Assembly (NCBI GenBank): GCA_002686955.1
Contig: NYZA01000036.1
Coordinates: forward strand, 1-26,252
Reading direction: 5' to 3'
Length of the DNA stretch: 26,252 nt
Source of the DNA: Gemmatimonadota bacterium
Lineage (GTDB): Bacteria; GCA-2686955
The notes beneath the pieces were generated by a model. That model was given only the letters and a program-made list of their open reading frames with translations. It was not told where the DNA came from and did no database searches. Position numbers and translations under genes: made by a program. Shown here in pieces: positions 4,477 to 26,252 of this stretch (the stretch's first letter is position 1; each line of letters opens with the position of its first letter).

Positions 4477-6351
4477 GTGAAGAAACGAAGCGCCCCGATC
4501 CAGGAGAGCTCGAGGGCCGACCGGTGGCCCCTCTTCCTCCTCCTCGGAACGGGGGTTTGCCTGGCGACCGCGTTGCTGTGGGGGCCAACTGGCACGGCTC
4601 CCATCCTCACTCTGTTGCTGGCCGTGGAGATCGCCGTCTTTCTGGTGCGGTTGACCCGGCGGCGGTCCAGGCGCGTGCACTTTCGTTTGATGATCAGCTA
4701 CGCGCTCTTGGGGTTCTTGCCGCCGGTTCTCCTCTCCTGCCTCGGGACCATCAGCCTCTATCTTTTCCTGTCAGCACAAGAGGTTACGGCTGTGCGCCAG
4801 ATCGTCGACCTCGAGGTGGAAGCGCTGGCGAAGCTCTGCGACGAGCTTGCCGCGGGATTCGAGATCGGTGCACCGCTGCCCCCTCGGCGAGGTGCGAAGC
4901 TGCGCTGGGTCGAGAGCCCCGGCGAGCTGCAACCCCGCGAGATCATCGAAGGCGCGGCGGGGGAGCATACCCTGGTCTTGCGCTCACCTACCGCCGCCAG
5001 CGGAGCGATCGAAGCCTCACTCCCGCTCGATTCAGGCCTCTTGGAGCGGGTGCGCCAAGCGACGGGTTACCGTATCTTGCTCCTATCGATGGCTGATTCG
5101 GAGAGTCCGGCGGCACCGGATTCCGCGGACCGCGCGTTCGACCTCTCCTTCGACAAGGGGGGCATAACACTTCAGTCGGTCAGCGGGGAGAGTGTGCGAG
5201 CGGTGGTCTCACTCAGGTGGAGTGAGATTCCGATCGTGCACATGGTCGGCGCGGACCAGTTGGTGCGAGGCCCATCGCGCAACGTCGTTCCGATCATCAT
5301 CGAAGATAGCGCGGTAGCGCTGGCGAAACGGCTGGCCGAGCAGCAGAGGATCCCGGTCCGAGAGATCGTGGGGTTTCTGCTCGTGGCCTTCGTCCTGGCC
5401 GAAGCGGCTCTGATGGCTTTTTCGATGTGGGTCGGTCATCGCGTTGGGAAGGCGACCGACCGACTCGAGGAGGCGGCACGCCGGATCGCGCGTGGGGATT
5501 TCTCCACCCGCCTGCCCGATCGATCACGTGACCAGCTCGGAGCGCTCGCCCGATCCTTCAACGAGATGGCCCACGATCTCGATCGACTCGTGGAGGACAA
5601 GGTCGAGTCGGAACGGATCGAAGGTGAGATCGCGGCGTGCGCGACGATTCAGGAAGGACTCCTGCCTCCATCCGACGGAACCTTGGATTCGCTGGAGATC
5701 GCCGCCTATACCCGGCCCGCCCGCGACGTTGGGGGGGATTCGTACGACTACTTCTCACTTCCGGGAGGACGAATCGCCCTGGTCGTGGCCGATGTCGCTG
5801 GCAAAGGGGTCACCGCGGCCCTGTACATGGCTGAGCTCAAGGGGCTGCTCATGGCGTTGGCCGACGGCAGGCGCCGCCCCGCGGAGGTGGTTCGGGCGCT
5901 CGACGCGGCGCTTCGCCGCACTCTGAGACGGGGCAGCTTCATCACCCTGGCCTACGTCGAAATCGATCCCGCCACGGGGGAAGGTGAGCTCGTGCGCGCG
6001 GGCCATCCGGCCCCGCTGCTTGCCGGCCCCGGGGGGGTGCGAGAGATCGAGGCCGAAGGCTCCGCGCTCGGACTTCCCGTCATCGTCGACTCGGTGGAGC
6101 GCGTGGGCCGCTTCACCCTGGCCCGAAACGAGTGTCTCGTTCTCTACACCGACGGCTTGACCGAGGCGACCGACCTCGACGGTAACGAGATGTCGGACGG
6201 CCCTTTGACACGAGCCGCGACCGAGGCCGCAACCCGCTCGCCTGGCAGTCCCACCGCCATGCGGGAAAGCCTTCTCTGCGCACTCGAGGACCATCCGGGA
6301 CGGCCGGATGATGTAACGGTGCTCGTGGCAGCCAGAGTCGAACCCCATTGA
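4477..6351 (+). CDS. Membrane HAMP-PP2C serine phosphatase (RsbU/SpoIIE-like)
   Basis: A 624-residue inner-membrane phosphatase. The GTG start has AGGAG 4 nt upstream; an ATG two bases earlier is followed at once by a stop. Hydrophobic segments lie at about 18-36, 42-58, 71-98 and 298-319, the last two flanking a probable extracytoplasmic sensor region. A HAMP linker follows (about 320-375), then a short coil, then the PP2C/SpoIIE domain (about 390-620). Its metal ligands are visible: ARDVGGDSYDYF (Asp421), VVADVAGKG (Asp439), LYTDGLTEATD and PDDVTVLVAA. In partner-switching systems such enzymes dephosphorylate the STAS antagonist, and two STAS genes and an RsbW-type kinase lie just across the divergent promoter region. 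It heads a plus-strand operon with the hybrid kinase and two receivers. The domain call is confident; the substrate is inferred from neighbours. Confidence 0.92.
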   Translation: MKKRSAPIQESSRADRWPLFLLLGTGVCLATALLWGPTGTAPILTLLLAVEIAVFLVRLTRRRSRRVHFRLMISYALLGFLPPVLLSCLGTISLYLFLSAQEVTAVRQIVDLEVEALAKLCDELAAGFEIGAPLPPRRGAKLRWVESPGELQPREIIEGAAGEHTLVLRSPTAASGAIEASLPLDSGLLERVRQATGYRILLLSMADSESPAAPDSADRAFDLSFDKGGITLQSVSGESVRAVVSLRWSEIPIVHMVGADQLVRGPSRNVVPIIIEDSAVALAKRLAEQQRIPVREIVGFLLVAFVLAEAALMAFSMWVGHRVGKATDRLEEAARRIARGDFSTRLPDRSRDQLGALARSFNEMAHDLDRLVEDKVESERIEGEIAACATIQEGLLPPSDGTLDSLEIAAYTRPARDVGGDSYDYFSLPGGRIALVVADVAGKGVTAALYMAELKGLLMALADGRRRPAEVVRALDAALRRTLRRGSFITLAYVEIDPATGEGELVRAGHPAPLLAGPGGVREIEAEGSALGLPVIVDSVERVGRFTLARNECLVLYTDGLTEATDLDGNEMSDGPLTRAATEAATRSPGSPTAMRESLLCALEDHPGRPDDVTVLVAARVEPH

Positions 6352-6382
6352 AACCTGAGAAGGGGACGGGGATCATCACTCC

Positions 6383-9300
6383 ATGACACGCGCCAAGAGC
6401 ATCCGGCGACCACGTGGTCTTCGCTGGAAGCTCATCACCTACTTCACGATCGTCGGGGCCTTTCCGCTGATCCTGGGGCTCTGGGCGACTTATGCCACAT
6501 CGCGCACGGCTCTGCGCTCGTCGATCGGGACGACGCTCGCCCAAGCGGCGATTCTGAGCGCCAATCGTCTCGACGAGCAGGCCGCGGCGCAATCCGGTCG
6601 AATCGCCGGCGCTTTTCGCAGGCCTGAGATCCTCTCCGCGCTGTCCGGGAGCAGTGCGGCCCGGCTCGATCTCTCCGCGGCCTTTCTGTCGGCCGATCTG
6701 CCGGTGATGCGGGCGTGCCTGAGCGATGATTCGGGCCGGATCGTGGCCACCTACGGGATCGAAGGAGAGGAGGAGGTCGCCGCCCTCCAGCGCGGGGCGC
6801 GCCGCTTCGCGGTCCGCTGGAGCGAGCGCGATGCTCTGCCCCTGCACAGTGTCAGTGCTGAGATCACCGACTTCGGGGGCAGTGTGCGCGGGCGGATCGA
6901 CGCGGAGATCGATGCCCGGGCGCTGCTCGACGGCTCGGGAGCAGCCTCGGCTGATCCGAATCGGCGTGTTTGGTTCATCGATGCCGCGGGGAGGATTCTC
7001 GGCGGGCGCACTCCCGGAACGGTGCTCGATGCCCCGCTGATTCCGTTGCTCGACCGGGTCGAGGCCGGTTTCGAGGTGGTGGAGCGCCGGCGAGCGGGCG
7101 AGTGGGAGCGGAAGTTGGTCGGCTTCACTCCGGCGACCATCGGAGGCACCGCGGCGCCCTTGCTCGTCGTCATCGAGAGCGATCTCGGGCACGCACTCGA
7201 ATCGACCCAGCTGCTCTTGAGGCTGATCATCGCTTTGACCCTCGTCCTCACGATCGTGCTCATCTGGAGCGCCAGCTTCTGGTCGGAACGGATCCTGGCG
7301 CCGATCCAGGAACTCGGTGGCGCGGTGAACGCGGTGAGCGAGGGCGATTTCAGTCGCCGCGTGCGGATCTCCACAGGGGACGAGCTCGAAGCGCTGGCCC
7401 AAGGCTACAACGAGATGATCGAAGGGCTCGAGGCCTACCACAATTTGATGCAAGAGCGGATCGAGCGGGGCGAGGAGGAGCTGGAATCGAAGCGGCGGGA
7501 GCTGGCGGCGACCGAAGAGGAGCGAGAGCTTTCGTCCGCCGAGCTCGGACTGCTCTACGCCGTTGGGCAGGCGGTGCTCCGCTCGACCGATCCGGGGGCG
7601 ACCCTTCGCGGTCTCGTCGACACGACTCGCATCGTCTTCGGCGTCGAGCGGGCCTATGTGCTTCTGCGAGAAGAGAATGCGCTCCACGGCGCCGCCGTCT
7701 CGCCCAACTGGGGAGAAGGAGGCTCCCCTCCCCTCGTTCCCCACGGTTCGCACTCGGCGGCTCTCGAAGCTCTCGAGACGGAGCGGCCGGTGCTGGTCGA
7801 GCGGGCGGCCGAGAGCAGGTATCTGGGTGGACCCGATCCGTACACCGAGAAAGCCGCGGTCTACGTTCCGATTCTGGGCGGTGAAGAGCCGATCGGGGTG
7901 CTGGGCTTGGTTGCCGCGGGAGGTGTGAAGCATTGGGATGCGCGCAGTCTCGACCGCGCCAGACGGATCGCGGACCAGGCGGCGATCGCGATCACGAACG
8001 CGCGGCGGGTGCGAGACCTCGGTGAGCGCGTCAGAGATCTCTCGGCCCTCTACGACGTCGGTCAGGCCGTGGCCGGCAGCCTCGACCTCGATCGGCTTCT
8101 CTTCGAGGTGCTTCAGATCCTCGAAGAGAAGTTCCACTATTCCCAGTCCGTCGTCGTGCTCCCGGCGGCCGACGGCGGCGGACTCTACTGCGCCGCTCAT
8201 CGGGGTTTTCCGAAGGAGCATGCCGAGGACATTCTGATCCCCCCGGGCCAGGGGATCTGCGGAGAAGCGAGGGAGACCGGCAAGCCGGTCTATGTGGCCG
8301 ACGTGGCGAAGCACGAGAACTTCGTCTATGGCATCAAGGGGGCGCGTTCGGCGCTCGCGGTGCCTCTGCTCAAGGGCGATCGAGTGATCGGAGTGCTCGA
8401 TATCGAATCGCCCGAGCTCGACGCATTTCGCGAGCGAGATGTTCGCGTGCTGACCTTGCTCGCTTCCCTCTTGGCCGTGGCGATCGACAACGCCCGGATC
8501 CACGGCAGCACTCACGCGAGCGCTCAGCGCTTTCGGGCGCTCTTCGATGTCGGTCGCGTGCTGGTTTCGACCTACGACCTCAAAGATCTGATGGACGGAG
8601 CACTGGAGATTCTCGACGAGCATCTGGGCTACCGAAATACCGCCATCCTGCTCTTCGACAGAGAGAGTCGCTCGCTTCAAGTCGAGTCCCACCGGGGCCA
8701 TTCCGGCGAGGGGATTACACGAATCCCCTTGGGAAAAGGGGTCTGCGGGCACGTGGGACTCACCCGCGAGCCGATGATCGTGGCCGATGTGCGCGAAGAG
8801 TCGAGATTCGAAGAGGGCTGGCCGGGGGCCCGGGCGGAGCTCGCGGTGCCGATCGTTCACGGTGAGGAGCTTCTCGGAGTGCTCGATGTGGAGTCGGGGC
8901 GCAAGGGGATTCTGGGGCACGAAGACCGCGATATCCTGACACTCTTCGCGGCACAGATGGCAGCCGCGATCAAGAACGCGCGCCTCTTCCGCGAGCGTGA
9001 GCTGGCGCTTGCCGAGAGTCAGGAGGCCGATCGCCTGAAGACCGAATTCCTTGCGAATACTAGCCACGAGCTGCGCACGCCGCTCACCGCGATCATCGGA
9101 TTCAGTGAAGTGCTCGCGGACGGGTTGGCGGGCGAGCTCAACAAGGAGCAGTTTCGATGCGTCAACGATGTGTTGACCAGCGGACGGCATCTGCTCGATC
9201 TGATCAACCAGCTTCTCGATCTCTCCCGCATCGAGTCGGGCAAGATGGAACCTTCCCCCGCGGTCGTCGACGTCGAGGACCTCTTCCGCGAAGTGGAAAC

Positions 9301-10522
9301 GACGATCAGCGGTCTGGCCAGCAAGAAGCGGCTCGAGCTGTTGACCGAGATCTCGAAGGGGGGCGAGAAGGTCTTCGCCGATCGCGGAATGATGAAGCAG
9401 GTGTTGCTGAATCTCGTCGGCAACGCGGCCAAGTTCACGCCCGATCGGGGGCGAATCACCCTCTCTGCCTCCGCGATCGCCTCCGATGGACTCGAACACC
9501 ACGTCGATCGGGGGGGCCGTTTGGCCCCGGAAGAGTTGATGCAGATCGCGGTGGCCGATACCGGGATCGGGATCGCCAAGGCGGATCAGAAGCTCATCTT
9601 CGGCGAGTTCCGGCAAGCCGACGGATCGTACACGCGGGAGCACCAGGGCTCTGGGCTGGGGCTCACGCTCTCGAAACGATTCATCGAGCTCAACAACGGA
9701 GTCATCTGGGTCGACTCAGAAGCGGGACATGGCGCCACTTTCAAGAGCGTGCTGCCTCGCGTCGAGCCCTCGGCGACCGACAGGGTCATCGCGGCGGAAG
9801 AAGCGCCGCGTCCGATCCTCTTGGTGGAGGACGACTTGAACTCGCTCAAGCTGCTCCGGCGGCTCGTGGAGGGCGCCGGGTACGAGGTGCTCACCGCTAC
9901 CACCGGCGAAAAAGCCCTGGCGTTGGCCCGGCGCTCCGAACCTCGCGTCATCGTGCTCGACGTGATGCTCCCCGACATGGATGGCTGGAGCATCATGAAG
10001 CAGCTCAAGGCCGAGCCGAAAACCGAGGGGATTCCTGTCATCATCACCAGCGTGCTCGGCAATCCCGATCTCGGCATCGGCCTCGGGGCGTCGGACTACT
10101 TCACCAAGCCGGTGCCGCGCGAGCCCTTCCTCGCTCGAATCGCGAAGCTCGGGGAGTGGCGGCGCACGCGAATTAGAGTCGTCTCCGGCGACGCCGAGAT
10201 CAGAGGACGGATCATCACGGCTCTCGATCGTCCCGGTTGGAACACCCGCGCCTTCGCGGACGTCGAGTCGGCGACTCGAGAGGGCAGCGACATCTTGGTT
10301 CTCGACATCGGCACGGAGGAGGAGCCCCGCGAGGTCCCGGGACGGGACCGTCTTCCAGTTCCGGTGCTTCTAGTATCGGCCCGTTCGATCACCGACGGCG
10401 AGAGACGTGAGTTCCCGCCGACGGTCGAAGGGCTCGTCGAGGTCGACGAGGGGCTGGAAGAGGCTTTGGCGAGACTGATCGACAGGTTGGACCAGCGGCG
10501 CAACCGCGCCATAGGAGGTTGA
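6383..10522 (+). CDS. Triple-GAF hybrid sensor histidine kinase with two receiver-like domains
   Basis: A 1379-residue membrane kinase. Domains in order: transmembrane helix about 17-38; periplasmic sensor about 40-275; second helix 277-300; HAMP about 300-355; coiled coil; GAF repeats at roughly 388-535, 553-708 and 716-868; HisKA with His895 in TSHELRTPLTA; HATPase with N box LLNLVGNAAKF, G1 VADTGIGI and G2 GSGLGLTL; a receiver from residue 1144 with phospho-acceptor Asp1193 (VLDVMLPDMDGW) and conserved lysine in DYFTKPV. The C-terminal ~115 residues form a second receiver-like fold that keeps an Asp (LVLDIG) but lacks the switch Thr and Lys patterns, so it is probably a pseudo-receiver. 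Translation starts 31 nt after the phosphatase, and the stop abuts the next receiver gene, so the genes are one operon. It probably phosphorylates the two downstream receivers. The ligands of the GAF domains are unknown. Confidence 0.93.
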   Translation: MTRAKSIRRPRGLRWKLITYFTIVGAFPLILGLWATYATSRTALRSSIGTTLAQAAILSANRLDEQAAAQSGRIAGAFRRPEILSALSGSSAARLDLSAAFLSADLPVMRACLSDDSGRIVATYGIEGEEEVAALQRGARRFAVRWSERDALPLHSVSAEITDFGGSVRGRIDAEIDARALLDGSGAASADPNRRVWFIDAAGRILGGRTPGTVLDAPLIPLLDRVEAGFEVVERRRAGEWERKLVGFTPATIGGTAAPLLVVIESDLGHALESTQLLLRLIIALTLVLTIVLIWSASFWSERILAPIQELGGAVNAVSEGDFSRRVRISTGDELEALAQGYNEMIEGLEAYHNLMQERIERGEEELESKRRELAATEEERELSSAELGLLYAVGQAVLRSTDPGATLRGLVDTTRIVFGVERAYVLLREENALHGAAVSPNWGEGGSPPLVPHGSHSAALEALETERPVLVERAAESRYLGGPDPYTEKAAVYVPILGGEEPIGVLGLVAAGGVKHWDARSLDRARRIADQAAIAITNARRVRDLGERVRDLSALYDVGQAVAGSLDLDRLLFEVLQILEEKFHYSQSVVVLPAADGGGLYCAAHRGFPKEHAEDILIPPGQGICGEARETGKPVYVADVAKHENFVYGIKGARSALAVPLLKGDRVIGVLDIESPELDAFRERDVRVLTLLASLLAVAIDNARIHGSTHASAQRFRALFDVGRVLVSTYDLKDLMDGALEILDEHLGYRNTAILLFDRESRSLQVESHRGHSGEGITRIPLGKGVCGHVGLTREPMIVADVREESRFEEGWPGARAELAVPIVHGEELLGVLDVESGRKGILGHEDRDILTLFAAQMAAAIKNARLFRERELALAESQEADRLKTEFLANTSHELRTPLTAIIGFSEVLADGLAGELNKEQFRCVNDVLTSGRHLLDLINQLLDLSRIESGKMEPSPAVVDVEDLFREVETTISGLASKKRLELLTEISKGGEKVFADRGMMKQVLLNLVGNAAKFTPDRGRITLSASAIASDGLEHHVDRGGRLAPEELMQIAVADTGIGIAKADQKLIFGEFRQADGSYTREHQGSGLGLTLSKRFIELNNGVIWVDSEAGHGATFKSVLPRVEPSATDRVIAAEEAPRPILLVEDDLNSLKLLRRLVEGAGYEVLTATTGEKALALARRSEPRVIVLDVMLPDMDGWSIMKQLKAEPKTEGIPVIITSVLGNPDLGIGLGASDYFTKPVPREPFLARIAKLGEWRRTRIRVVSGDAEIRGRIITALDRPGWNTRAFADVESATREGSDILVLDIGTEEEPREVPGRDRLPVPVLLVSARSITDGERREFPPTVEGLVEVDEGLEEALARLIDRLDQRRNRAIGG

Positions 10523-10945
10523 GTGGCCGACGATGTAGATGTCTTGGTTGTCGAGGATTCAGACGAGGCCAGACGGCTGCTCGTGATGATCCTGAGTGCC
10601 GCGGGCCGTTCGGTTGCTACGGCGACGACCGGACTGGAGGCGATCGGTTTGCTCCGGGAAGAGGGGCTGCGCCCGGGGCTGATCGTGCTCGATATGCAGT
10701 TGCCGAAGATGAGTGGCCTCGATGTGGTTCAGGAGATCAGGCGAGCGCCGGAGCTCCGAGACCTGCGCGTGTTGGCTCTGACCGCCCATGCGATGCCCGG
10801 TGACCCGGAGCGCTTCATCGCCGCCGGCTGCAACGCCTATCTTTCGAAGCCGATCGACACCCGGGCTTTCGTGCGCCATGTGAGCGCGCTTCTGGCCGGC
10901 GCGACCGAAATCGAAGACGACACTTCGCACACCAGTGAGACGTGA
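10523..10945 (+). CDS. Single-domain response regulator (REC only)
   Basis: A 140-residue stand-alone receiver. The GTG start lies directly after the kinase TGA and has AGGAGG 4 nt before that stop. Acidic pocket residues are in VVEDSDEAR, the phospho-acceptor is Asp57 (IVLDMQLPKMSG), the switch Thr is Thr87 (LALTAHAM) and the conserved Lys is Lys109 (LSKPI). All key residues are intact, so it should be phosphorylatable. There is no output domain; the tail after residue 125 is short and acidic. In the family such proteins act as phosphate shuttles or by protein binding (DivK or Spo0F type). Its position between the hybrid kinase and the two-receiver protein suggests it passes phosphate or competes within this operon. 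It overlaps the next gene by 4 nt (GTGA). Confidence 0.92.
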   Translation: MADDVDVLVVEDSDEARRLLVMILSAAGRSVATATTGLEAIGLLREEGLRPGLIVLDMQLPKMSGLDVVQEIRRAPELRDLRVLALTAHAMPGDPERFIAAGCNAYLSKPIDTRAFVRHVSALLAGATEIEDDTSHTSET

Positions 10946-12123
10946 CGATGCGAAAGACGAAAATCGTCGTTATCGAAGACGATCCGAAAACACGCCGTCT
11001 GATCTCGACCATGCTCGACGACCAGAACCACGACTTGGTCATGGCAACGGACGGGGAAGACGGCCTGGAAAAGGTCAGACTGCATCTTCCCGACCTCGTG
11101 ATCACCGACATCCTGCTCCCCGAGAAGGACGGCTATGTCGTCCTCGAGGCGATGAAGCGCGACCCGGCCCTCGAAAAAGTGCCGGTCATCCTGATCTCGG
11201 CGATCTACGTGTCGGAGGTGGACCGGCGACGCGGACTGAAGCTCGGCGCCGACCATTTCCTTCTGAAGCCGGATGCTTTCCTTTCCAAGCCTTTCCGCGC
11301 GAATGCACTGCTCGATGCCATCCAGATCACGCTCGGCGAAAAGCGCCCGCCGGAGTCCGATGCGCATGAACCGATCGACACCGTGGTCGTAGTGTCGAGC
11401 GTCGACAAGGATCGCCGTCTACTCGGCCGCCGGCTCGAGGCACAAGGGTACAAGGCTGTCGAGGTCGACAATATCGAGGATGCGGCCCAATCGATCCACT
11501 TGGAGCAGCCTGCCGCGGTGGTCGTCGACGTGGATCGCCTCGAAGCGCCGGCGGAATGGATGCGCGGGTTGGATCGTGAGTTTCCCGAGTCGGCCTTCAT
11601 CGTCTTGGCATCCGCTGAGGGGGAGCCGGATCCGATCGAGGTGATGCGAGCGGGGGCGAGCGATCTTCGGTCGAAGCCGCTAGACTTCGCACTTTTTTTT
11701 CATTCGCTCCACGAGGCCATCGAAAACAAACGGCATAGAGCGGCCAGAATCGAGCTGACGGAGCAGCTCAAACGGACCACGGCCGACCTGCTCGATCGGA
11801 TCGCGCGCCTCGAGGCGAGCAATCGGGCGCTCGAGAAGAAGAACCTAGAGCTGGGCGAGGCCAAGAACGAGCTGCGGGCCCGCGACCGGATCGATCCCGA
11901 CGAAGTGGCCCAGGCTGTGCGGGCCATCCAGCGAGTGGCCACCGAAACCAGCGGTCAGGCCGATCTCCTGGTGGATCGGACCGAGGGTGCGGAGGAGCGA
12001 TTGGCGCTGATCGTTCGCTCGAACGTCGCCAGGATCTCGGAGCTCCTCGACGAGGTCGGCCGCGGCATCGGTCGAAGCGTTGAGCCTTTCGCGGGCGATC
12101 AGCGGGAGAGTTCGGAAGCGTAG
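10942..12123 (+). CDS. Two-receiver coiled-coil response regulator without DNA-binding domain
   Basis: A 393-residue protein, last gene of the signalling operon. The first receiver (about 5-135) has the acidic pair IEDD, phospho-acceptor Asp56 (LVITDILLPEKDGY) and a Lys in a duplicated motif, LLKPDAFLSKPF. A second receiver-like domain (about 145-265) keeps VVVDVD and RSKPLD but has lost the usual DxxLPxxxG loop, so it may be a pseudo-receiver. A helical segment follows from about 270 to 320 (LTEQLKRTTADLLDRIARLE and onward) with strong coiled-coil character. The last 70 residues are a polar helical region I do not recognise. No helix-turn-helix, cyclase or phosphatase domain is present, so output must be by protein contact. 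A start at the ATG six bases downstream (10948) is equally possible. Confidence 0.88.
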   Translation: MTMRKTKIVVIEDDPKTRRLISTMLDDQNHDLVMATDGEDGLEKVRLHLPDLVITDILLPEKDGYVVLEAMKRDPALEKVPVILISAIYVSEVDRRRGLKLGADHFLLKPDAFLSKPFRANALLDAIQITLGEKRPPESDAHEPIDTVVVVSSVDKDRRLLGRRLEAQGYKAVEVDNIEDAAQSIHLEQPAAVVVDVDRLEAPAEWMRGLDREFPESAFIVLASAEGEPDPIEVMRAGASDLRSKPLDFALFFHSLHEAIENKRHRAARIELTEQLKRTTADLLDRIARLEASNRALEKKNLELGEAKNELRARDRIDPDEVAQAVRAIQRVATETSGQADLLVDRTEGAEERLALIVRSNVARISELLDEVGRGIGRSVEPFAGDQRESSEA

Positions 12124-17087: not shown

Positions 17088-17843
17088 ATGACAGAGTCGT
17101 TACTTCCCGATGCGAATCTCCCTCTGCCGAGGCATATCGCCGTGATCATGGACGGGAACGGCCGCTGGGCTCGGCGCCGGTCGTTGCCTCGCTTGATGGG
17201 GCACCGAGAGGGCGTGAAGTCGGTTCGAGAGACGGTTACCGCGTGCGCAGAGATGCATATCGACGCGCTTACCCTCTACGCCTTTTCGACGGAGAACTGG
17301 GGACGCCCTTCCCGCGAGGTGACCGGGCTGATGCGCCTTCTGCGCAACTACCTCGTGCGCGAAGTCGAGGAAATGATCGAGAACGACATTCGGCTCGTCG
17401 CCATGGGGCGGCTCGAGCAACTCCCCGGCACAGTGCGCAAGGCCCTCGATCGCGCGATGGCTATGACCGCGCATTGCCGTGGAATGGTGCTCAATCTGGC
17501 CCTCTCGTATTCCGGCAGAACAGAGCTGGTCGATGCCGTGCAGCGGCTGGCCGCGGGGGTTGCCCGAGGCGAGATCGCGCCCGAGAACATCGACGAAGCG
17601 GCGATCGGCTCGTTCCTGTATCACTCGGAGCTGCCGGAGCCCGATCTCGTGATCCGCACCAGCGGTGAGCAGCGCATCTCCAACTTTATGATATGGCAGA
17701 TCGCCTACGCGGAGCTCTTCTTCGCCGATGTCCCCTGGCCCGACTTCCGTCAACCCCATCTCTACGCTGCGATCCGGGAGTTTCAGCGACGGGACCGCCG
17801 CTTCGGGCTGGTTCCGGGGGCGATCAGCGAGAAGGCGGGGTAG
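17088..17843 (+). CDS. uppS: Undecaprenyl diphosphate synthase (cis-prenyltransferase)
   Basis: A 251-residue cytoplasmic cis-prenyltransferase that extends farnesyl diphosphate with isopentenyl diphosphate to the C55 carrier lipid for peptidoglycan and other envelope glycans. Signature motifs are all present: IAVIMDGNGRWARRR with the Mg-binding Asp22, TLYAFSTENWGRP, LNLALSYSGRTELVDA, and the C-terminal DLVIRTSGEQRISNFMIWQ with the IPP-binding Arg and Ser. Length is normal. The ATG has GAGGA about 7 nt upstream. It usually sits with cdsA, dxr or frr; here it follows a winged-helix regulator and faces the MamK-like gene, with the two 3' ends overlapping by 20 nt. A UbiA-type prenyltransferase nearby could draw on polyprenyl diphosphate made here, which is inference. 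Confidence 0.96.
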   Translation: MTESLLPDANLPLPRHIAVIMDGNGRWARRRSLPRLMGHREGVKSVRETVTACAEMHIDALTLYAFSTENWGRPSREVTGLMRLLRNYLVREVEEMIENDIRLVAMGRLEQLPGTVRKALDRAMAMTAHCRGMVLNLALSYSGRTELVDAVQRLAAGVARGEIAPENIDEAAIGSFLYHSELPEPDLVIRTSGEQRISNFMIWQIAYAELFFADVPWPDFRQPHLYAAIREFQRRDRRFGLVPGAISEKAG

Positions 17844-18882
17844 GTCCCTCCTTCGCCAATCTCGCCCAATCCTCATCGGGCGTGTCCTTGGCGATCTCGA
17901 GTGCCCCTTTCGCCCCGGCGAAGAGCGCATCTTCCACCGCTTTGACCTTGCCGCCACCGAGCTCGGCCAGCATCTCCTCGATCGCGCGATCGATGCCGCG
18001 AATCTGGCTGCCGCCGCCCGCGAGCAGCACGTTCTGTCGCACCTGCTCCTGGAGCTCGGGGTCGAAGGCGGCAATCAGCTCGCGGATCTCGCCCAGCAGA
18101 TGGGGGAGGATGCTCTCGCAGGCCGTGCGCATCTCGTCGGTGATGTCGTGCGCGGTCGGCTTGCCGTCGACCGGAATCGTGACCTTTACCTTTTGGCCGG
18201 GATCGTCGCCGACGAAGGCGTGAGCCTCCTTCCACTTCACGACCATGGAATCGGTGAACTGAGCGTTCGGGAATCGCTCGTGGAGCAGGTCGGCGAGCTG
18301 CCGGTCGATATAGTCTCCGGCCTGCTCGATGGTGCGCTGGTCCTCGGCGGTCGGGACGGTGCCGCGCATGATGCAGAGGTCGATCGTGCCGGCGCCGATG
18401 TCGACGACCAGCGCGTCGACCAGCATGTCGAGACCGTAGGCGACCGTGAAGGGCTCGCTCACCACCATCGACGCGTCGACCAGCTCCCCAAACGCCTCGC
18501 GTAGCAAGCCCTTGTTGTATGAGCTGGCCTCGGCCGGTGCGCCAATGACCGCCTGAACTCGTTGTCCATCTTCGGCATCGACGAGAGATATCAAGTGCTG
18601 CGCGAGGGCGCGGATCGCCTCTTCGTCGCGCTCGGTGTTCTTGTGCACGACGCCGTCCTGCAGCGGGCGGAAGACGTCGAGAGCGAGCCGGTGGTCGAGG
18701 CATTCGGCGCCGTAGACAACATCCTTTTTCAGCAGCTTGCGGGCGATGACATCTTTGGGCCAACCAACCAGACTGCGGTCCCAGGCGGCGGCGCCGCTCG
18801 ATGTGGTCACGGCGCTGCGTGCCGTGCCGAGGTCGATGCCCACATAGAGATCGTCGAGAGCCTTGCGCTTTCTGGTCGCCAC
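17824..18882 (-). CDS. MamK-like bacterial actin
   Basis: A 352-residue actin-fold ATPase closest, by my reading, to the magnetosome filament protein MamK. Shared features include VGIDLGTARSAV (phosphate 1), VGWPKDVIARKLL, CAVIG-type QAVIGAPAEAS, VVSEPFTVAYGLD, VVDIGAGTIDLC (phosphate 2), RGTVPTAEDQ and LLAGGGSQIRG (adenosine). With the chosen GTG (18882, AGAGGA 6-7 nt upstream) the catalytic Glu falls at 143 and the phosphate-2 Asp at 161, the same numbers I recall for AMB-1 MamK. MamK forms cytoplasmic filaments that position magnetosomes. No other magnetosome gene is visible here; the upstream co-directional gene is a peptidoglycan amidase, 88 nt away. It could position a different cargo or guide envelope growth. 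MreB and ParM fit less well. Confidence 0.85.
   Translation of the reverse strand: MATRKRKALDDLYVGIDLGTARSAVTTSSGAAAWDRSLVGWPKDVIARKLLKKDVVYGAECLDHRLALDVFRPLQDGVVHKNTERDEEAIRALAQHLISLVDAEDGQRVQAVIGAPAEASSYNKGLLREAFGELVDASMVVSEPFTVAYGLDMLVDALVVDIGAGTIDLCIMRGTVPTAEDQRTIEQAGDYIDRQLADLLHERFPNAQFTDSMVVKWKEAHAFVGDDPGQKVKVTIPVDGKPTAHDITDEMRTACESILPHLLGEIRELIAAFDPELQEQVRQNVLLAGGGSQIRGIDRAIEEMLAELGGGKVKAVEDALFAGAKGALEIAKDTPDEDWARLAKEGPTPPSR
17827..17856. terminator. Possible bidirectional terminator between uppS and the mamK-like gene
   Basis: GCGAGAAGG (17827-17835) can pair with CCTTCGC (17850-17856) with a 2-nt bulge, and an inner GGG/CCC pair closes the loop. It spans the overlapping 3' ends of the two convergent genes. 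There is no T run on either side, so intrinsic termination is uncertain. Confidence 0.3.
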
Positions 18883-18970
18883 TTTCTGTCCTCTCTGCGG
18901 CCGAATTCGCGGCCTATTCGACGAGTTTGCGGTTTGTTCCACGATTTCGATTCCCATCTCGAGGATTCGG

Positions 18971-20119
18971 CTATTCGGCCGCGACGAGGCCGCGCCGAGA
19001 GAGCCCTTCGATATAGTCCTGAATGCCCTCGGAAAGCAAGCGCGCGATCTCGTGCCGATGCGACTGCCGCGTCAATCGCCGCTCTTCTTCGGGATCGTTC
19101 ATCAGAGAGACCTCGGCGAGCACGGAGGGCATTCGCGTGTCGAGCAACACCAGGAAAGGTGCCCGGCGCACGCCGTAGTCGCGGATCCGCCGCCCCCGAA
19201 CATCGAGAAGACCGCGGTACAGCCGCTTCTGGATGGAACGCGCTAGGAGCCCGCTCTCCTCCTCCTTCAGAGTCTCGCCCATCTTGGCGATCAGCTCTTC
19301 GAACTCCCCGATCCGCCCCTCGCCGCCCAGATTCTCGCGCGCCGCCGCCTTCTCGGCCCGGTCGTCGGTGGGGAATCCGAGATGGAAGGTCTCGATGCCG
19401 CGAAACTCGGGGTTCTCGAAAGAGTTGATGTGGACGCTCACAAAAAGATCGCCGCCGCTCCGGTTGGCGATCCGAGCCCGCTCGCGCAGCCCCAGCCCGA
19501 CGTCGCTGGAACGGGTCAGAGTGACGCTCAGGCGTGGATCGGCCTCGAGAATCGACGCCAGCTTCAGACAGATATCGAGCGTGACGCCCTTTTCGAGCAG
19601 CCCGGTGTTGGGCCCCGCGGTGCCGGGGTCGCGCCCGCCGTGGCCCGGATCGATCACGACATGCCGAACGCCTAGGTGGAAGAGCTCCGCGAGGGGCAGG
19701 CGATCGCCGTCATCGAGGAAGGAACTGGCGGCGTGCAGGGGGGAGGGGGAGGAGGAAGAGGGGTTCTGGGATGTCGAGTTGCCCGTGGGAAGCGCATGGA
19801 CCGGAGCGGTCACATAGCGCGATCCGGGTGTCGACCCGTCCTCTCGTGCCGTTGCGGAGCCGAATCTGAGCACACCCCGTCCTCCGACGAAGAGCACCGC
19901 CGCCGCCACGACCGCCGCCGCGATTCGGCGTGCCGGCAGGTGCGGATGAGAGTTTCGTAACGCTTGAAAGGGGGCCCCAAAAGAGCGCCGCGACCGGGTC
20001 GATCGCGAATCCGCCAGGTTCTCGCTCACCAGGCGGGCCACGATGCGCCCTTTCATGCGCCGGGCAGCTTCTCTTTCCGGGTCCACGCTCTCGTTTCCGT
20101 TCCGAAGTTGGTCACGCAC
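18971..20119 (-). CDS. N-acetylmuramoyl-L-alanine amidase (Amidase_3, AmiC-like)
   Basis: A 382-residue zinc amidase that cleaves the bond between MurNAc and the stem peptide and in the family separates daughter cells. Zinc and catalytic residues are visible: His160 (VIDPGHGGRDPG), Glu176 (GLLEKGVT), His230 (FVSVHINSF) and Glu336 (VLAEVSLMND). The N-terminal part has a charged cytoplasmic stretch and one membrane anchor (about 64-80), then a Ser/Pro-rich linker (about 110-130). This is an inside-out anchor rather than a cleaved signal. The insert rich in Glu and Lys (about 255-295) resembles the autoinhibitory helix region of Ami enzymes. The GTG at 20119 is the longest start; a GTG at residue 12 or the ATG at residue 22 are possible. 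It lies between the DUF35 gene and the MamK-like gene on one strand. Confidence 0.92.
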   Translation of the reverse strand: MRDQLRNGNESVDPEREAARRMKGRIVARLVSENLADSRSTRSRRSFGAPFQALRNSHPHLPARRIAAAVVAAAVLFVGGRGVLRFGSATAREDGSTPGSRYVTAPVHALPTGNSTSQNPSSSSPSPLHAASSFLDDGDRLPLAELFHLGVRHVVIDPGHGGRDPGTAGPNTGLLEKGVTLDICLKLASILEADPRLSVTLTRSSDVGLGLRERARIANRSGGDLFVSVHINSFENPEFRGIETFHLGFPTDDRAEKAAARENLGGEGRIGEFEELIAKMGETLKEEESGLLARSIQKRLYRGLLDVRGRRIRDYGVRRAPFLVLLDTRMPSVLAEVSLMNDPEEERRLTRQSHRHEIARLLSEGIQDYIEGLSRRGLVAAE

Positions 20120-24653: not shown

Positions 24654-25236
24654 CTAATCGACAGAGCAGAAAGTAGTTGTTGGTCGTCTTGCCGCCGCGG
24701 GTGGCGCGGCCGATCGTCACGTGGTGCGAAATGCGTCGCATATGGTCGACCATCCCCGCGAATACCAGTCGCTGCAGTCCGACTTCGTTCGTCTTCACCT
24801 GGGGCCAGGCGAGGGGGAGTCGGGCGCTCGGTGGCGGCACCTTTCGGTAGTCCACGCCGATTTCGATCCCCGCCGCGGCGGCCGGCACCACGAAATAGCC
24901 CGGGCCGACGATCTCGCGGGTCGGTCCCTCGTTGTATCCGTAGAGCAGATCGTCGCGTTCGGCCGCGCGGCAGAACCGTTTCTCGAACGAAGAGAGGACC
25001 GGCAGGGTGTTCTTCCCCTTGTGGATCACCTCGACGCCCGGAGCGCTCGAGGGGGGGACCAGATCGTCGAGTGTGGCGGGCCGCTTCCTTGCCGCTTCCC
25101 ACAGGCGAGCCTGCGTGCGTGCGCCGATCGATCTCACGAAGCGGACGCGCCGGGTGTCGTCCAGCGAATCGAGATACTCGGCGAGCGCGTCGATCCGCTC
25201 AGGCGTCAGCGATTGGGGAATGGTACTAGTGCTCAA
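24646..25236 (-). CDS. Uncharacterised 196-residue protein, TTG start
   Basis: I do not recognise this protein. The TTG at 25236 overlaps the stop of the upstream transglycosylase as TTGA, with GAGGA about 10 nt upstream; the frame continues far upstream but there it is only the shadow of the transglycosylase. Residues about 1-60 are helical and charged (ALAEYLDSLDDTRRVRFVR). The remainder looks like a compact alpha/beta domain with the distinctive strings LYGYNEGPTREIVGPGYFVV, GIEIGVDYRKVP and ISHHVTIGRATRGGK. No signal peptide and no membrane segment are seen; one or two cysteines are present. It lies between a lytic transglycosylase and an NAD(P)-binding protein, with overlaps on both sides. 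Confidence 0.75.
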   Translation of the reverse strand: MSTSTIPQSLTPERIDALAEYLDSLDDTRRVRFVRSIGARTQARLWEAARKRPATLDDLVPPSSAPGVEVIHKGKNTLPVLSSFEKRFCRAAERDDLLYGYNEGPTREIVGPGYFVVPAAAAGIEIGVDYRKVPPPSARLPLAWPQVKTNEVGLQRLVFAGMVDHMRRISHHVTIGRATRGGKTTNNYFLLCRLDG

Positions 25237-26252
25237 GATTCGGCCGTCCTCGAATATGCCGCGAAACGATCGCGAATCGTCCGAACGTATGCCACCGGCT
25301 CCGCACCCCGACAGTATCCGTAGCGCGCGCTCTGCGCATAATCCGGGCGGGAGAGCAAAAGCATCGCCCTCTCCACATGACCGAACCATCGGTCGCGATC
25401 GAGACCCAGCTGCGTCGCGAGCCTGCGCGCATCTTGCACGTGGCCGTAGCCGGCGTTGTAGGCCGCCAGGGCGAACCAGGTTCGGTCGTGGACACTCAGA
25501 TCGTCCTCGAAGCGATCCCGAAGCCACGCAAGGTACTTGACGCCCGCGTGAATGCCGGTCTCCGGATCGTGCAGGGCGGAGAATCCGAGCTGCCCCGCCG
25601 TGCGCGGCAGCATCTGCATCAACCCCAGCGCTCCGTTCGGGGAGCGCGCCTCCGGGTCGAATCGGCTCTCCTGGAACATCAGGGCAACCACGAGACGCCA
25701 ATCGAATCCGTATGTGGACGAGTAGGCGCGCACGAGTCCGTCCCAGGGGCAGAGCTCCTCCTCGGCGCGGGCTTCGAGGGGCAGAGACGCCTCTCCAGCG
25801 TCGGAGGCGAAGTAGCGGTCGAAGACCACGTTGTAGAAGAGCCCTCGGTACTCCTTGTCGATGAAGGCGTTGAGTGCGGCGAGCAGATCCTGGTTCTCGC
25901 TCCGCACCGCCCACCCATGATCGACCGGGTCGCCCAGCGCGATATCGGCGACGATGTCGTCCCTCCAGGCCATCTCCAGCGCGACAATGTGGCTGTCGGC
26001 GATCGTGAGATCGAACTCGCCGTCGGCGACGCGGGAGATGATCTCATCGGTTCCCAGAGGTTCCGGTGGCAGCTCGAGCGCCACGTTGATGCCCGATTCC
26101 CGCAGCCGTTCCGCCGTCCTCCAGTACGAGGTCCCGGGGCTTACGATCACCCGCCGGCCGTCGAGGTCGGCGATCGAGCGCAGAGGGTCGTCGTGGCGCA
26201 TCACCATCAACTCGGCGGCCTGATGGTAGGGATCGGTGAAAGCCACGCCGCG
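25233..26252 (-). CDS. MltF-like lytic transglycosylase, N-terminus cut by window edge
   Basis: The frame is open at the right edge, so about 340 C-terminal residues are present. The first ~140 visible residues are the second half of a periplasmic solute-binding (SBP_bac_3) domain: DLDGRRVIVSPGTSYWRTAE, VADGEFDLTIADSHIVALEM, DHGWAVRSENQDLLAALNAF. They are followed by a family 1 SLT domain with catalytic Glu in ALMFQESRFDPEA, then GLMQMLPRTAG, HAGVKYLAWL and FALAAYNAGYGHV. This domain order is that of MltF, an envelope enzyme that cleaves the MurNAc-GlcNAc bond with 1,6-anhydro formation and whose SBP-like domain tunes activity. The GTG at 26246 is internal, not a start. It heads the operon with the unknown protein and the NAD(P)-binding protein. 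Confidence 0.92.
   Translation of the reverse strand, partial: RGVAFTDPYHQAAELMVMRHDDPLRSIADLDGRRVIVSPGTSYWRTAERLRESGINVALELPPEPLGTDEIISRVADGEFDLTIADSHIVALEMAWRDDIVADIALGDPVDHGWAVRSENQDLLAALNAFIDKEYRGLFYNVVFDRYFASDAGEASLPLEARAEEELCPWDGLVRAYSSTYGFDWRLVVALMFQESRFDPEARSPNGALGLMQMLPRTAGQLGFSALHDPETGIHAGVKYLAWLRDRFEDDLSVHDRTWFALAAYNAGYGHVQDARRLATQLGLDRDRWFGHVERAMLLLSRPDYAQSARYGYCRGAEPVAYVRTIRDRFAAYSRTAES

Follow-up and report, generated by a model that had tools for sequence, protein, structure and literature searches.

The sequence analysed here, called the window below, is a stretch of 26,252 nt from a Gemmatimonadota bacterium (contig NYZA01000036.1). On its minus strand, the gene of a membrane amidase is directly followed by that of an actin (Table 1). 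The actin gene occupies the interval proposed for it in a first-pass annotation and its strand, missing there, is minus: the ORF is intact in that direction and broken by stops when the same interval is read on the plus strand. The segments that had been singled out as specific for MamK (VGWPKDVI, VVSEPFTVAYGLD and RGTVPTAEDQ) are all found in it. Two start codons were considered, a GTG at 18882 and an ATG at 18957; the former was preferred because it follows an AGAGAGG sequence, while nothing comparable precedes the ATG. With the GTG start, the alignment to the solved MamK chain is gap-free up to the two catalytic positions, so that Glu143 and Asp161 do fall at the MamK numbering, as initially claimed. 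A trait of BeeR, the disordered N-terminal extension of 30–50 residues, is absent with the GTG start and present with the ATG start.

Table 1. Features of the amidase-actin pair (positions in the window)
Feature	Position	Strand	Remark
MamK-family actin, 352 aa (GTG start)	17824..18882	-	377 aa if started at the ATG at 18957
AGAGAGG resembling a Shine-Dalgarno site, 7 nt ahead of the actin GTG	18890..18896	-	read from the sequence
Catalytic Glu, E143 by MamK numbering (residue 168 when counted from the ATG)	18454..18456	-	
Asp161 by MamK numbering (residue 186 when counted from the ATG)	18400..18402	-	
First gene of the pair, for a bitopic membrane N-acetylmuramoyl-L-alanine amidase (Amidase_3) of 382 aa	18971..20119	-	predicted topology
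Amidase_3 catalytic domain, residues 154-367, with H160, E176, H230 and E336	19019..19660	-	
Single transmembrane helix of the amidase, residues 66-84 (AlphaFold 63-82), after the basic tail	19868..19924	-	
Cytoplasmic tail motif MKGRIVARLVSENL, residues 22-35, Asn34 invariant	20015..20056	-	proposed filament-docking helix

Upstream of the actin gene lie the Amidase_3 gene and those of a Zn-ribbon/OB-fold protein, a thiolase and a FabG-like reductase. On the other side, an undecaprenyl pyrophosphate synthase gene (17088–17843, plus strand) converges on the actin gene and overlaps its end; the same order of amidase, actin and convergent uppS is found in G001, a genome of the same family. Farther away, some 5 kb from the pair, the window end cuts the gene of a protein with a lytic transglycosylase (SLT) domain (25233–26252, minus strand). 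On the plus strand (4477–12123), genes in a row encode a SpoIIE-type phosphatase, a hybrid histidine kinase of 1379 aa that contains three GAF domains, and two proteins of the response-regulator type. The thiolase seemed to tie the window to the MamK-like loci of Poseidoniales; this was taken as chance, since gene order and partners differ and the thiolase is absent from the other members of the amidase clade. A role in defence was likewise discarded, the model search having given just a weak partial match (21.6 bits).

Against the NCBIfam MamK model NF040964, the actin scored 419.6 bits (E 7.9e-126, cut-off 400), against 214.4 bits for the BeeR model (cut-off 530) and 69 bits for the MreB model (cut-off 293). 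Its nearest solved relatives are three MamK structures (PDB 5LJV, 5LJW and 5JYG; about 42% identity), followed by BeeR. The structure model (mean pLDDT 92) matched the MamK filament 5ljv best, with a Z of 43.8 and 1.4 Å over 325 residues, ahead of BeeR (Z 40.5) and MreB (Z 33.7). The protein is thus a member of the MamK family that has kept the fold and the catalytic residues E143 and D161. Together with a tree rooted on MreB, the model scores bear out the earlier preference for MamK over MreB, FtsA or DnaK, and lead us to reject a placement with BeeR as well. The name given by NCBIfam does not, however, imply magnetosomes, because two sequences whose examined flanks contain no mam genes, one of Latescibacterota and one of Planctomycetota, also pass its cut-off.

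Relatives outside magnetotactic bacteria are already known, namely BeeR of Verrucomicrobiota (PDB 8R2N, PMC11929497), which is about 30% identical to the window actin, and Bbp of giant bacteria (PMC10580974), the gene cluster of which includes a Kelch-domain gene. One scan of genome contigs gave 218 relatives, and 80 of these were kept. They come from Planctomycetota, Acidobacteriota, Nitrospirota, Latescibacterota and Rokubacteria, and also in marine archaea, Methanoperedens, giant sulphur bacteria and magnetotactic bacteria. Two trees were built, a careful one of 57 rows and a quick one of 93 rows. In the 57-row tree, where MreB is the outgroup (100/100), the amidase-linked actins form one clade of 15 (support 97/99), within which the window actin groups with those of G001, L022 (a Schekmanbacteria record) and L023 (a deep-sea bacterium). 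The main magnetosome MamK clade (100/100) stands apart from it, the MamKs of Desulfamplus and Omnitrophota are outside both, and the sequences from giant sulphur bacteria that we presume to be Bbp (L088 and L089) are in yet another clade and have no amidase alongside. The first-pass annotation had spoken of a MamK filament recruited for an organelle, cargo or envelope task. Recruitment is not supported, because the two clades are separate and MamK relatives are common outside magnetotactic bacteria: the actin belongs to an amidase-linked clade of its own, and the tree does not show it to derive from a magnetosome gene. Of the three tasks, the envelope is the one that was supported, the conserved partner being a peptidoglycan amidase; nothing pointed to an organelle or to cargo.

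The amidase-linked clade covers records of several phyla, the phylum names being those of the record titles. One member titled Acidimicrobiia (L042, contig VFZL01000029.1) is probably misnamed, since it shares its phylum set with G368 and its actin groups with those of Acidobacteriota; the amidase of this member is divided over two reading frames. Elsewhere in the tree, a record titled Deltaproteobacteria (L096:10010-11035) has its actin inside the Poseidoniales clade, which points to transfer or misbinning.

The amidase had been noticed before, as a mere neighbour. It is indeed a neighbour, and it turned out to be the key to the locus: an Amidase_3 gene lies immediately 5' of the actin gene, on the same strand, in 15 of 16 clade loci, and no third conserved gene was found among the neighbours of these loci. 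In a sample of 257 genomes of one phylum, 26 were actin-positive and all 26 had the amidase adjacent; when a single amidase was used as query, no amidase of an actin-negative genome extended to the tail (see below) among the matches listed. Within 386 genomes around that of the window, eight had a tail-bearing amidase; the actin was present in 8/8 and adjacent in 7/8. The exception is the L023 genome, in which the amidase is located inside another contig, with its tail motif intact; that amidase and motif persist when unlinked speaks for a functional link beyond a merely inherited operon. An apparent exception of another kind, a long amidase match in a genome without the actin (G193), was rejected as an AMIN-type amidase without the motif. 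Three genomes of the 386 set have a MamK-family actin without a linked amidase: G056, whose actin is outside the clade, and G242 and G344, which are unplaced in the tree. The linked amidases form one clade with respect to the other sampled amidases, exported AmiC-type paralogues among them (SH-aLRT 93), and actin and amidase distances are correlated (r = 0.92 over 15 pairs, a value reached in none of 5000 permutations). The linked sequences being related, these counts of pairs are not independent trials, and Fisher values computed for them were for this reason set aside. Operon-like arrangement and joint inheritance are properties of the pair. In the open-licence literature we found no paper joining a MamK-type actin to an amidase.

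The window amidase scored 146.9 bits against Amidase_3 (gathering cut-off 27), its four metal and catalytic residues (H160, E176, H230 and E336) are invariant in 12 sequences, and the nearest solved fold of its model is that of E. coli AmiA. The linked amidases resemble the division amidases AmiA, AmiB and AmiC (PDB 8C2O, 8C0J and 4BIN) in their catalytic domain. In contrast to these exported enzymes, they retain a tail in the cytoplasm and an anchor in the membrane, and they form a clade of their own. Their predicted architecture is bitopic: a basic tail of about 40–80 residues leads into a single membrane helix, which is followed by a variable linker and then by a catalytic domain predicted to be periplasmic. 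A single transmembrane segment and a net positive tail were predicted in 14 of 14. The paralogous amidases of the same genomes are without such a tail and have long N-terminal domains of other types, mostly after a signal-peptide-like start. The tail itself is variable save for one amphipathic stretch, hydrophobic-[KR]-x2-[ILMV]-[LVIH]-x2-[AVLI]-[VFYAI]-x-[DENQ]-N. This motif could be aligned without gaps in all 19 sequences that served to define it, with the Asn invariant. Among further amidases the N-terminus could be read in 18, and all of these again have the helix and the Asn; 15 fit a slightly relaxed form of the pattern and three deviate by one substitution. A few of the 18 are close relatives of the earlier loci or come from the same genomes. 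AlphaFold places a helix (residues 14–40) over the motif, with modest confidence (pLDDT around 66).

How could such a pair work? A functional parallel is the bactofilin BacA-LmdC system (PMC10945521), also a bicistronic combination of a polymer with a bitopic wall hydrolase whose cytoplasmic tail is conserved. There, the tail of LmdC binds the bactofilin polymer with a Kd near 15 μM, and tail exchanges abolish recruitment (PMC10945521). The likeness is one of working principle, with no claim of shared ancestry: the polymer is a bactofilin, the enzyme is an M23 endopeptidase and the LmdC tail is a β-hairpin, as opposed to the helix predicted in the window amidase. MreB-RodZ (PDB 2WUS) offers a second parallel, in which a bacterial actin contacts a bitopic protein at the cytoplasmic face of the membrane; MreB is, however, a distant outgroup to the window actin, and an MreB-like gene is present in the genome besides that of the actin. 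By analogy with bactofilin-LmdC, for which the same design was demonstrated experimentally, we think it probable that the two genes constitute a cell-envelope module in which a MamK-family filament docks the tail of the amidase and positions this periplasmic hydrolase. The cytoplasmic actin would polymerise with ATP, the amphipathic helix of the basic tail would dock on the filament, and the filament would gather and place the amidase and thereby set the site of peptidoglycan cutting during shaping, growth or division. Clade-specific actin residues such as R128 are leads for the candidate docking face. As to the broader proposition that several phyla possess a second, MreB-independent actin system for placing wall enzymes, in which a MamK-family filament steers the periplasmic amidase across the membrane by way of its tail, and that the magnetosome filament is only one specialised branch of a family with lineage-specific adaptors, we regard the chances as even.

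The main rival of this positioning scheme reverses the dependence: the amidase would act as a receptor in the membrane, anchoring the filament or nucleating it at particular sites of the wall, and the actin would have another purpose such as division-site or shape organisation. The same pairing and the same tail motif would be expected, and no membrane anchor is obvious in MamK-type actins themselves. We nonetheless hold this unlikely, since the full conservation of its catalytic residues indicates that the amidase is needed as an enzyme, and since other MamK-like clades have different neighbours instead. Joint inheritance could also reflect shared regulation rather than contact. Actin and amidase would then be two co-regulated envelope genes whose products do not meet, and the motif would be there for dimerisation or membrane binding; short amphipathic helices are indeed common, and the contact between tail and filament is something that we infer. 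What makes this explanation rather improbable is that both genes and the motif persist when unlinked, that the actin and the tail-bearing amidase co-occur exclusively and that one Asn is invariant within an otherwise variable tail.

The last alternative is that the actin is a true magnetosome MamK, the other magnetosome genes having been lost or being located in the 15% of the genome that the assembly lacks. The protein does pass the family cut-off, and the assembly (4.28 Mb in 270 contigs) is 84.5% complete. A genome-wide search was carried out with MamB, MamP and MamQ: MamQ gave no match, and MamP and MamB gave sub-cut-off matches alone, like those in control genomes, whereas the same search gave strong matches in two magnetotactic control genomes. 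Likewise, none of the three was over the cut-off in G001 or in other genomes of the clade, namely those of L022, L026, L031 and L036. The absence of a magnetosome gene set around the actin, reported earlier for the window, extends to the whole available genome for these three genes, and a magnetosome cluster elsewhere in it was rejected on the same search. Since the actin clade is, in addition, distinct from the main magnetosome MamK clade, and since the conserved partner is an amidase, we consider a magnetosome function very improbable.

Other MamK-like genes have other neighbours. In 13 of 31 loci, mostly planctomycete (e.g. L035:1838-2668), a related protein that looks rich in coiled coils is encoded directly upstream on the same strand; it has no Pfam match and is a candidate adaptor. 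Just upstream of the Poseidoniales MamK-family actins (L072:8805-9863 and others) is the gene of a conserved uncharacterised protein with a weak zinc-ribbon match; no paper naming MamK and Poseidoniales together was found in the open-licence literature. In Methanoperedens (L055:10991-11602), the MamK-like gene is followed, 1 nt on, by that of a protein with the archaeal-flagellum domain Arch_fla_DE. In G056 (L004:2603-3217) a ParB-type gene comes after the MamK-like gene, perhaps in keeping with a role in segregation.

MamK is commonly regarded as the hallmark filament of magnetosomes. The name also falls on proteins of bacteria without detectable magnetosomes, and mamK by itself is unsafe as a marker of magnetotaxis in metagenomes. 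That MamK relatives exist without magnetosomes is not new; the actin-amidase pair is a polymer-plus-hydrolase module built on a true actin. The locus offers another concrete job for MamK-type actins, with a named partner and a 14-residue candidate docking motif. To conclude, the conservation of the pairing across several bacterial phyla suggests a further role of MamK-type filaments, the placing of enzymes that remodel the cell wall. If this is true, the principle illustrated by bactofilin and LmdC would extend to true actins, and it would bear on the roles that MamK-type actins may have besides the alignment of magnetosomes.
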